This document shows, piece by piece, positions 47,420-50,814 of a stretch of 64,000 nucleotides of DNA; the first letter of the stretch is position 1; each line of letters starts with the position of its first letter. A model generated the notes under the pieces. The model had not been told where the DNA came from and made no database searches. It saw only the letters and a list, made by a program, of their open reading frames with translations. A program made the translations under genes and the position numbers. This stretch comes from Methanomicrobia archaeon (GTDB taxonomy: Archaea > Methanobacteriota_B > Thermococci > Methanofastidiosales > NM3), in contig JAUVXU010000003.1 in the NCBI GenBank assembly GCA_030603445.1, forward strand, positions 62,001-126,000. Reading direction: 5' to 3'.

Positions 47420-47487
47420 AAAAGAAAGTAATGGCGCCGAGGTAGGGATTTGAACCCTAGCTCCCCGGAGGGGAACTGGCTCTCAAG
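47420..47487 (-). repeat. Left attachment repeat: detached 3' half of tRNA-Ser
   Basis: The 68 bases match 50713-50780 exactly. They hold the anticodon 3' side, variable arm, T arm, acceptor 3' strand and encoded CCA, plus 12 flanking nt. The identity stops at 47488, inside the anticodon loop. It is not a functional tRNA because the 5' half is absent. Confidence 0.9.
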
Positions 47488-47493
47488 ACCCTC

Positions 47494-47599
47494 CTAGGGG
47501 TATTCTTCCTCGCCCATGCCATTCCACTGATTCGGTTTTGTACTCCTTACTAACGGAGAACTAATATTTAATATTTTACGAAATTGGCCTTTCGCCATT
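47494..47599 (-). CDS. Possible 34-residue leaderless small protein in the element
   Basis: The frame starts MAKGQFRKILN and ends just before the left attachment repeat. A TATA-like GGTTATTTATAC (47624-47635) lies about 30 nt upstream of the ATG, which is the leaderless spacing used elsewhere here. I recognise no domain. With so short a frame, chance is a real possibility. Confidence 0.22.
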
Positions 47600-47917
47600 G
47601 CACAATGTATCCGTGGACACTTGTATAAATAACCCTTTGCACACATATCTAAACAAACATTGGTCCTTCCAATGTTCTTCCTCCTACAGGGCCCCGGGCC
47701 CACCTTTTCAGAGGGTGACTATGACAAAGGAAAAGATACTGTCCGCGTGCTGGCTGCTCGTCATGTCGCAAGAATAGTGATGATTATTTTTCATATAATT
47801 GATTAATTATATGATTTAATTCAAAATAATTCCAATAGTATGAATATTAATCAAAAATATAGTAATATCAGGCGGTATGTTTATATCTAGGTATTGCGAT
47901 ATTGTTCCAGTGATACC
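47600..47917. other. Element region without a supported gene
   Basis: About 320 bases. The left part holds the minus-strand TATA-like box at 47624-47635. A GC-rich patch (about 47690-47770) contains an 18-codon frame starting ATGACAAAG with GAGGGTG upstream, too short to call and possibly a gene remnant. The right part is AT-rich and contains TTTATATCT (47879-47887), the best promoter candidate for the exported protein. Confidence 0.4.
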
Positions 47918-49141
47918 ATGAAAAGGAAATACATCTGCATACCAGTGATGGTATTGATGATATGTGCACTCTTCCCGGGGATGATGATCTCCGGGGACTG
48001 TGAAAGCTGCAGTACTGAAGATGTCACGCCGTATACCTCCCAGTATCTGCGTGAATCAAGTCTCGAAACCGACGAAATGCTTGATACACTGTTTCAGAAT
48101 ATTTCTAAGAAAACAGAATTACTCACTGAGATGCTCAAAAACGTACCATCCAAAGAAGATGAAGAGCTTTCCTCACTAATAGACGATTTCTACACAGATT
48201 ACATATACTATCTTCATTACAATTACCAGAAAGCGACTCTAGAAACAGTAAGTGCAATGACAAGTGAGAGTAACAATTACTTGCTTATAAATGAGATAGA
48301 CAAGCAGATAGAACGCTCCGAACTGGAGATGGCATTTCTGCAATACGAAAATTTGACACGTGAAGTTGATGCGCAGTATGATATTCTGAGATTATACTAT
48401 GCCCCTACAGAGGACACACAGGTCGAGTATGGAGTAGTGTTTGATAACATTCTTTTCCTTTACAAAGAACTAACGAACCTTAATACACGTTATGCCAGAC
48501 TCATGACGGAGTATAATATTTCACTACAAGCAGAAAAACAAGAAATACTTATGAGATCTCTGGTAATATGCGACACTCCTGGAACTGGCGATAGCTTGCA
48601 AAGTTACCAACAATATTACATGGCAAGTTTTGCTTGGGTAAAAGCGTGGGTTGGTGTGTATAGCAGCCAGGTCCCAAACACAGATTATTTCATAGGGGAA
48701 TTTTGTACTGGCACTAAAAACACGCTGGACGGGTACCTTGCTATCGCAAATGATGAGTATGATCCATGGAATGTTGGGTCCATTCAGGTAAAATACTTCT
48801 TCATAGCCAATCAGAGCACACACCAGCATAATGCTATTTACGAGGGGAATAGGTCGAACTATAACCTTAATGGCAACTATTCTATTGGGGGGAGGCAGGT
48901 GTCTTTTACAAATGGCACAGGATGGACATATGGCGTTTCATATGACGGCTCCAGCACGCCATCAAATGGGAACTATCGCTTCTACGTAAACGCGGATTGG
49001 TTTATTACGTACCAGGCCTGCTGCATACCGTCTTGGCCCCCCGATAATACAATATATCCCCAATGGTGCAATAAACACTGCGGCGGCTGCTTTGCATGCG
49101 ATGATGGCGCGGACCAGAACTTTATTATTGATGAACCCTAA
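47918..49141 (+). CDS. Exported protein with helical domain and Cys-rich C-terminus, element cargo
   Basis: 407 residues from the ATG before KRKYICIPVM; a TTG eight codons earlier is also in frame. A signal peptide (about 1-25) is followed by about 200 helical, coiled-coil-like residues (LETDEMLDTLFQNISKKTELL and similar). The C-terminal half is beta-like with several possible N-glycosylation sites and ends in a Cys cluster (ACC, WCNKHCGGCFAC). I do not recognise the family. The stop overlaps the ATG of the lipoprotein gene by one base, so the two are translated as a pair. They are the only intact genes of the element. Confidence 0.7.
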   Translation: MKRKYICIPVMVLMICALFPGMMISGDCESCSTEDVTPYTSQYLRESSLETDEMLDTLFQNISKKTELLTEMLKNVPSKEDEELSSLIDDFYTDYIYYLHYNYQKATLETVSAMTSESNNYLLINEIDKQIERSELEMAFLQYENLTREVDAQYDILRLYYAPTEDTQVEYGVVFDNILFLYKELTNLNTRYARLMTEYNISLQAEKQEILMRSLVICDTPGTGDSLQSYQQYYMASFAWVKAWVGVYSSQVPNTDYFIGEFCTGTKNTLDGYLAIANDEYDPWNVGSIQVKYFFIANQSTHQHNAIYEGNRSNYNLNGNYSIGGRQVSFTNGTGWTYGVSYDGSSTPSNGNYRFYVNADWFITYQACCIPSWPPDNTIYPQWCNKHCGGCFACDDGADQNFIIDEP

Positions 49142-49866
49142 TGGCATATGGCTGTGATATAATAAAGAATAATCCTTGGCACACCATTCTGACACTGTCC
49201 CTCCTTTACTGCATAATGTGCAGTGGTTGCATAACAGACAAGGGCAACGAAGAAACAATACCTCCGACAACGACAGTAGCGCCGACCACGGTACACACCC
49301 TGCCAATATACGCGTCCTTCCTGCAGGAGAAGATGGCGGAGTCGGAGGCCGCTTACGAGGCAGCATCGGCGGAATGGCAAAGAACCCTCGAGGCGTTCCT
49401 AGCCCTGGCGGGGTCGCCGGATTCGGGGCAGGACGATCTATATCAAGCGTACACAGACTACGATGCGGCGTTACGGGAATACGAGCGCGTGCTGCAGGAA
49501 TACTGCCGCAGGTCGATACTGACCGAGTACACCATCATCATCGAGGGAGACCTGCTGGCGCTGAAGAAGGAGACGATCCCTTTCAGTAGCCCGACCGGGA
49601 TGACCTACACCTACGGGGTGCTGAACATGGGAGCTGAAGAATATATGGTCCACACAAGCGATATGGAGTTTCTTATCATGAGTGGCATTGGGGGGCAGGA
49701 ATCTCGCCAGGAGCTCCTTGAGGCTATCGAAAGGATGGAGGAGTTCCTTCCAGAATACCACGACATGATCATAGGGTACGTTTACGGCAAACTGAACAAG
49801 GTTTTGGTCTGTCAATCGGTCTACTCGGACATCCTGGAATACGGTTGCGACATCGGCTACATCTAA
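49141..49866 (+). CDS. Lipoprotein with coiled coil, element cargo
   Basis: 241 residues. A signal segment ends in a lipobox-like IMCSGC (about Cys30), then a Thr/Pro linker, a coiled-coil-like helical region (about 60-125: LQEKMAESEAAYEAASAEW, YDAALREYERVLQEYCRR) and a mixed C-terminal domain. No family is recognised. It shares the signal-lipobox-Thr/Pro-linker layout with the thioredoxin lipoprotein at 14934, but not its sequence. The middle of the gene is GC-rich while both ends are not, suggesting mosaic origin. It overlaps the upstream exported gene by one base. Confidence 0.68.
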   Translation: MAYGCDIIKNNPWHTILTLSLLYCIMCSGCITDKGNEETIPPTTTVAPTTVHTLPIYASFLQEKMAESEAAYEAASAEWQRTLEAFLALAGSPDSGQDDLYQAYTDYDAALREYERVLQEYCRRSILTEYTIIIEGDLLALKKETIPFSSPTGMTYTYGVLNMGAEEYMVHTSDMEFLIMSGIGGQESRQELLEAIERMEEFLPEYHDMIIGYVYGKLNKVLVCQSVYSDILEYGCDIGYI

Positions 49867-49921
49867 TCCCGCAAGAAGCAAGACCCCCAGCCCTTTTCTT
49901 TTTCTTCCCTTTTTTTTACCA

Positions 49922-50669
49922 TCAACATCTGCAGAACTGTCTAGCCTGTCCCTTGCACGAAGCCATCTTCGGCCTCTTCATGTGGGCCTTCCTGGCGTAC
50001 TTCTTGACTAGCGCCCCCATGCTGTTGGGGGACATCTTGTTGCCCCTGCTCGAGGTGAAGAAATAGTCGTGCTCCGCATCGGGGCGGCGGCGGAGCCACT
50101 GGGCTAAGGCATCGGCGGCGTCCTTGTGGAGGATGCAGTCCGCCTCGGTATGGGGGTCTTGCTGCCGTGCACGGTGAGGACGCGCTCCTCCAGATTGAGA
50201 TCTTATACCCTGATGTTTGTGACCTCCGTCCGGCGAAGCCCGCCGTACAGCATGAGGCACAGCATGAGGCACAGCATGGCGTAGTCCCGTATCGAGTCGC
50301 ACGCGTACAGGAGCCTCGTCGCCTCTATCTCCGTGAGATACGTCACGCCGAGGTATCGGTCGGCGGCTTGATGTCCGGGGGATCGATGTCAGCGTATCCG
50401 CAGTAGTGCTTCACTGTCTTGCAGTAGTTGCGCAGCCTTGATGCCGACCTATCATTGTCGAGGAGATGGGAATATACGGCGAGGAGATCCTCAGCGGAAG
50501 GGAAGGGCGTCCCAGCTCGCCTGGCTATGAACAGGTAATCCTTCCTCAACCATTCGCAGTATGTCTTGGAAAGCCCTTTTGCCCTCAGGTGGGAATAAAA
50601 TTTATCGGAGAACGTAATAAGGTCTGATTTCATGGGTACTAGCCTCCCGAGCCAGTGTTCATATTTCAT
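49922..50669 (-). pseudogene. Decayed tyrosine recombinase (integrase)
   Basis: The first 108 codons (50669 to 50343) give an N-terminal SAM-like core-binding domain (FSDKFYSHLRAKGLSKTYCEWL). A frame change then opens YLTEIEATRLLYACD followed by YGGLRRTEVTNIRV with the first catalytic Arg, but a TAA stop comes directly after, and another frame change is needed to reach DCILHKDAADALAQW. A 12-bp tandem duplication (two copies of the LCLM codons) lies just before the Arg motif. The frame ends at 49922 with no HxxR box and no catalytic Tyr. It is therefore not a working enzyme. Its 5' end is 56 nt from the tRNA, as expected for the element's own integrase. Confidence 0.82.
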
Positions 50670-50712
50670 TAGGATATTATTACGGAAAACTAAAATAATG
50701 CCATATTTTCAC

Positions 50713-50780
50713 AAAAGAAAGTAATGGCGCCGAGGTAGGGATTTGAACCCTAGCTCCCCGGAGGGGAACTGGCTCTCAAG
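50713..50780 (-). repeat. Right attachment repeat within tRNA-Ser
   Basis: Exact copy of 47420-47487. It covers the tRNA from the anticodon loop to the 3' end and 12 nt past the CCA. Bases differ from 50781 onward, which marks the crossover side within the anticodon stem-loop. Confidence 0.9.
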
Positions 50781-50814
50781 GCCAGCGCGTTTGTCCGAGC
50801 TCTGCCACCTCGGC
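50725..50814 (-). tRNA. tRNA-Ser (anticodon UGA)
   Basis: On the minus strand the acceptor arms GCCGAGG and CCTCGGC pair fully, followed by discriminator G and an encoded CCA. The anticodon stem CTGGC/GCCAG encloses CTTGAGA, giving anticodon UGA for the UCA codon. The long variable arm (TCCCC/GGGGA) is that of a class II tRNA, and the T loop is GGGTTCAAATCCC. No intron is needed to fold it. The 3' half is the attachment site of the neighbouring element. Confidence 0.95.

Follow-up and report, generated by a model that had tools for sequence, protein, structure and literature searches.

A probable remnant of a small tRNA-targeted integrative element that keeps genes for predicted exported proteins in a Methanofastidiosia archaeon

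Islander maps genomic islands by a signature, a complete tRNA gene accompanied by a displaced 3′ fragment (PMC4383910). Among archaeal elements, those of the classical type II (pNOB8-like) have an uninterrupted recombinase gene beside the att site and use the 3′ part of a tRNA gene as target, while in suicidal elements of the SSV/pT26-2 kind the att site lies within the integrase gene, and integration separates int(N) at one end from int(C) at the other (PMC8371274). The pT26-2 plasmid family, known from Thermococcales and Methanococcales, comprises elements of 17–38 kb with core ATPase/membrane genes and a suicidal-type integrase, and none was found in Methanofastidiosa (PMC6972569). Exported, fast-varying proteins with variable downstream genes characterize the VARTIG modules of Thermococcales, which are defined by Ig domains (PMC8416519).

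Here we describe a 3.3-kb segment at a tRNA-Ser(UGA) gene of a methanogenic Methanofastidiosales archaeon, within a window of 64,000 nucleotides (the whole stretch of DNA that was analysed). Together, the repeat geometry, a complete tRNA, empty sites in relatives, the remains of an integrase, cargo genes that are still intact and the presence of a second element in tRNA-Gly(GCC) make it very likely that a small (~3.3 kb) tRNA-targeted integrative element, classical and not suicidal in type, has left a fixed remnant here, which has been retained for its exported cargo. Its features, in window coordinates, are as follows.

47420–47487, minus strand: attR, comprising the orphan tRNA-Ser 3′ half and 12 bp of 3′ flank, 68/68 identical to 50713–50780
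47488–47784, no strand assigned: attR-proximal arm without a recognised gene (matches neither integrase nor element 2)
47785–48027, plus strand: promoter and signal-peptide region of gene 1, conserved in element 2 at 81% nucleotide identity (L006:5843-6086)
47918–49141, plus strand: gene 1 (P0001), an intact ORF for a putatively exported 407-aa protein with a predicted helical middle and a Cys-rich C-terminal WxNxHCxGCFAxD
49141–49866, plus strand: gene 2 (P0002), an intact ORF for a predicted 241-aa lipoprotein, its start overlapping the gene-1 stop
49894–49997, minus strand: conserved block of ~110 bp 3′ of gene 2, convergent with it and fused to the integrase remnant (four copies in the relatives searched)
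49988–50633, minus strand: pseudogene of a tyrosine recombinase, spread over three frames, with a single in-frame stop and ~59 C-terminal residues gone (pieces align to P0005)
50713–50780, minus strand: attL, comprising the 3′ part of the complete tRNA-Ser and 12 bp of flank, from the repeat comparison
50725–50814, minus strand: complete tRNA-Ser(UGA), restored on the integrase side (ARAGORN, Rfam)

The boundaries of the segment are those of a tRNA gene and its displaced 3′ half. A direct repeat of 71 bp with one mismatch (47420–47490 and 50713–50783) consists of 68 bp of exact identity followed by an A/G difference, and the starts of its copies lie 3,293 bp apart; an exact match of 68 bases is far beyond chance expectation. 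ARAGORN finds exactly one complete tRNA-Ser(TGA), and Rfam agrees. On the tRNA strand, identity runs from the first anticodon-loop base through the encoded CCA into 12 bp of T-rich 3′ flank. The orphan half shares the orientation of the tRNA and sits downstream of its 3′ end. When the outer flanks are joined through one repeat, a single complete tRNA-Ser with its T-rich tail is restored. The original prediction had described identical 68-bp repeats 3.29 kb apart, one within a complete tRNA-Ser and one an isolated 3′ half, whose shared sequence ends in the anticodon stem-loop, and all of this was borne out.

Compared with described systems, this is an ordinary kind of element with little-studied cargo. 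With Islander islands it shares the complete tRNA, the downstream same-strand 3′ fragment, the anticodon-region crossover class and a size above 2 kb (PMC4383910); the tDNA and displaced fragment bound 3,293 bp, within the 2–200 kb that Islander accepts. It differs from them in lacking an intact integrase ORF and in being smaller, at 3.3 kb, than islands of the main size peak, which lies at 13.6 kb (PMC4383910). As the integrase is present only as a pseudogene, we file the locus as an island remnant and not as an active island. The uninterrupted recombinase gene beside the att site and the use of the tRNA 3′ part are as in classical type II elements, whereas the pseudogene state and the lack of replication or transfer genes set it apart (PMC8371274), and the catalytic R, HxxR, H and Y are incomplete in the window copy. 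No separation into int(N) at one end and int(C) at the other is seen. Integration into a tRNA gene in a related archaeal lineage recalls the pT26-2 family (PMC6972569), but the size, core genes and suicidal integrase of that family are absent here. Finally, the exported, fast-varying protein with a different downstream gene in each element resembles VARTIG modules; these are defined by Ig domains (PMC8416519), whereas gene 1 has no Pfam domain and matches no Ig family.

The integrase remnant, which the original prediction had overlooked along with the second element, begins 80 bp from attL, matches PF00589 and contains two frame changes. Its pieces align to residues 1–94, 98–169 and 158–217 of P0005, and thus cover residues 1 to about 217 of this intact 276-aa tyrosine recombinase, which adjoins tRNA-Gly(TCC) in G003, a Candidatus Methanofastidiosia MAG. 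The window copy keeps GGLRR and GSKT and has lost HxLRH, LRH and the IYTH tyrosine, all present in P0005. The P0005 gene (L097:2923-3939, contig C199) lies 110 bp downstream of its tRNA and is 100% identical to a copy in JAHKLV010000181.1 (Candidatus Methanofastidiosia); this locus is probably an active related element cut by the contig end. All recognisable integrase pieces of the window lie beside attL and none at the attR end, so that integration did not split the gene, which identifies the element as classical and not suicidal (PMC8371274). With its integrase dead, the tRNA-Ser element would be unable to excise itself. Further integrase matches in the genome are limited to a XerA-like protein and one other broken fragment. 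A broken integrase fragment at L100:8061-8300 (G000 C8:40060), not beside a tRNA, has an HSLRHSFATHLLE motif and stops. G+C is 0.51–0.60 across gene 2 and the integrase remnant (49250–50750) against 0.41 window-wide, and third-position G+C there (0.66–0.68) is nearer to that of G001 and G003.

Relatives carry the site without the element. In G003 (L078) a response regulator, a small ORF, one other ORF, one tRNA-Ser(TGA) and an aldolase gene follow one another, with unbroken nucleotide similarity from the tRNA-Ser into the aldolase gene. G001 (L077) has a response regulator and a small ORF, then other genes including riboflavin genes, one tRNA-Ser, one further gene and the aldolase gene. Neither genome has a second tRNA-Ser half at the syntenic locus, and both therefore have empty sites, as established by gene order and the missing half; the intergenic DNA left of 47420 is too diverged for a base-level alignment, the nearest relatives being other species. 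G002 is uninformative here, its contig stopping short of the tRNA-Ser. The uninterrupted tRNA-Ser locus whose presence in related genomes had been proposed as a check is thus found in two of them, and the segment is not a constant feature of the site in relatives. At the empty locus of G001 (L077:4286-5653) there is also a 455-aa lipoprotein, a distant relative of gene 2 (28–29%).

A second element of the same design occupies tRNA-Gly(GCC). A DNA search of the same genome led to contig C41 (L006), where a 43-bp exact repeat of the tRNA-Gly(GCC) 3′ part recurs 3.54 kb apart. The interval between the copies holds residues 1–83 of a P0005-like integrase (88% identity), a homologue of gene 1, a beta-propeller lipoprotein (P0004; Pfam PQQ_2) and the 3′ block. 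Identity to G003 is 86% over the part of element 2 that starts at the tRNA and ends at integrase residue 83; beyond that point element 2 has cargo instead, and the site is empty in G001 and G002. The genome contains exactly two copies of gene 1, one per element. The two elements are alike in size, which suggests that ~3.3 kb may be usual for them. A genome-wide scan for the T-arm motif GGTTCRAATCC, limited to that sequence, returned 30 sites: 24 plain tRNAs, 4 intron-containing tRNAs and 2 orphan halves, the latter being those of the tRNA-Ser element and of element 2. Four matches without an ARAGORN tRNA were considered as further orphan halves and rejected, as they are the intron-containing tRNAs.

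We found no larger parent of the element in relatives, viral contigs, or phage or plasmid collections. Gene 1 had no match in virus, phage and plasmid collections, and neither the integrase nor the att sequence, which it had been suggested to look for in viruses, had one in viral searches. P0001–P0003 have no convincing PHROGs match and no relatives in viral contigs, PADLOC returned nothing, and the segment holds two cargo ORFs only, with no virion or viral replication genes, which sets it apart from a provirus. Two earlier claims, that no replication gene is visible and that two exported proteins are encoded (gene 1 with its signal peptide, gene 2 as a predicted lipoprotein), hold. Of the suggestion that the segment is a remnant or satellite of a larger integrative element, the remnant part is supported by the repeat geometry, the integrase pseudogene, the empty sites and element 2, and the satellite part, with its larger parent, is not.

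Gene 1 belongs to a family with a patchy distribution. By inspection its product begins with a signal peptide; the middle varies and the Cys-rich end is conserved, and the invariant columns of the family alignment include H387, C388, C391, F392 and D395. A single-sequence structure prediction, with a mean pLDDT of 35.5, was uninformative. Homologues occur in 33/115 genomes of the phylum and are absent from G001–G004, and no family for gene 1 is present in Pfam, NCBIfam, PHROGs or PADLOC. Where inspected in class-level relatives, the gene is chromosomal, usually followed by another exported gene and sometimes by a beta-propeller. Two same-class genomes have copies adjoining tRNA-Ser and tRNA-Cys, with no duplicated tRNA end. 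Frameshifted copies and lone C-terminal fragments of ~30 residues also occur (G028, G067, G026, G060, G072, G073, G110), and such broken copies in same-class genomes suggest frequent breakage or recombination.

Relatives of gene 2 are found only in G001, G002 and G003, often in tandem, with one marginal match in G011. On G003 contig C240 a P0002-like gene adjoins a gene 74% identical to P0004, which indicates that both elements draw their second gene from one pool of family-specific lipoproteins. Tandem islands of P0002-like and propeller P0004-like lipoproteins lie at L183:356-3886 and on other contigs of G002 and G003, one of them adjoining a probable transposase; these lipoproteins are confined to family f1, with the marginal exception of G011. 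An origin of gene 2 as a copy of the gene-1 coiled region was considered and dropped, as hhalign gave nothing.

Both elements have open cargo frames (407, 241, 390 and 397 aa), whereas their integrases are broken. This contrast suggests selection on the cargo, although open frames by themselves are no proof. Most likely the cargo has been retained because it benefits the cell, and the proteins would act at the surface or outside the cell.

The proposed history is as follows. A classical archaeal tyrosine recombinase, its gene unsplit, would have joined an attP identical to the tRNA-Ser(UGA) sequence from anticodon loop to 3′ end with that tRNA gene. At the integrase-proximal end this would have made the tRNA whole again, with its displaced 3′ half left at a distance of 3.29 kb. 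Later the integrase would have decayed as the two adjoining exported-protein genes stayed intact. The recombination event and the loss of mobility are both deduced from the present arrangement. One observation runs counter to a simple remnant: the orphan half is still 68/68 identical despite the degraded integrase, which is a poor fit to long passive decay in place. The identical halves could be explained if the element arrived recently with its integrase already broken, if the decay is recent, or if gene conversion has acted on them.

This identity would also fit an element that had lost its own integrase and was still moved by that of another. Such mobility in trans is unlikely in our assessment. 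It draws on the identical att halves of both elements (68/68 and 43/43) in spite of their broken integrases, on the intact G003 integrase beside tRNA-Gly that is 88% identical to the element 2 fragment, and on archaeal split-integrase elements known to excise with outside help (PMC8371274). However, no intact integrase besides the XerA-like one was found in the genome, neither a second insertion of an element nor a copy in the virus, phage or plasmid collections was found, and identity over such short att halves is also explicable by recent decay or gene conversion.

The edges of the cargo are more conserved than its contents. Between the elements, the promoter/signal-peptide region is 81% and the 3′ block 79% identical in nucleotides, whereas the gene-1 proteins are 34% identical and the second genes unrelated. 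The 3′ block occurs four times, in both elements (window 49894–49997; L006:8416-8545) and on G003 contigs C240 and C42 (L183:209-334; L184:2871-3004). The G003 copies lie beside related lipoproteins on contigs without a tRNA and are 81–86% identical to that of element 2. Across two genera the copies, ~110–130 bp long, share 77–86% identity, above that of typical orthologous genes there, and the block belongs to no known family and had no match in a viral search. All four copies can be read without indels as 20 codons, MKRPKxAxxKG...FCxC plus stop, and their variable sites are concentrated at third positions (10 vs 6 and 4; P = 0.05), so a small reading frame may end in the block. We had considered it as the integrase C-terminus, with an argument on age from the shared truncation, and dropped this given the copies beside lipoproteins in G003.

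The mobile unit could accordingly be the module itself (promoter, gene 1, lipoprotein and 3′ block), recombining among elements and lipoprotein islands, with the tRNA elements merely as hosts that it disabled. We regard this as doubtful. Besides the conserved edges, it would account for the start of the element 2 module just past integrase residue 83, for the replacement of the integrase C-terminus by the 3′ block in the tRNA-Ser element, and for the 3′ block and gene-2 relatives on G003 contigs without a tRNA. Yet we identified no recombinase, terminal repeat or target-site duplication for such a module, and the G003 contigs are short, so that an element context is possible there. Somewhat less probable still is a system of shuffling surface-protein cassettes, in which a constant promoter/signal peptide and 3′ block would frame an exchangeable exported protein and lipoprotein that move between tRNA elements and the lipoprotein islands of Methanofastidiosia via integrases acting in trans. 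An assembly artefact or chance tRNA pseudogene, for which only the fragmented, MAG-like assembly (48 contigs) speaks, is hardly credible given outer flanks that are both syntenic with relatives around one tRNA, an element 2 of the same architecture with homologous cargo, and an integrase remnant in the expected place.

As the very probable remnant of a classical integrative element, the tRNA-Ser locus adds Methanofastidiosia to the lineages with tRNA-targeted elements and provides a clear case of an element reduced to its att sites, a dead integrase and a pair of exported-protein genes. Its cargo family is shared with Thermococcales-like genomes of the same class and links mobile DNA to variable archaeal surface proteins, and the exported pair offers a concrete protein to test.
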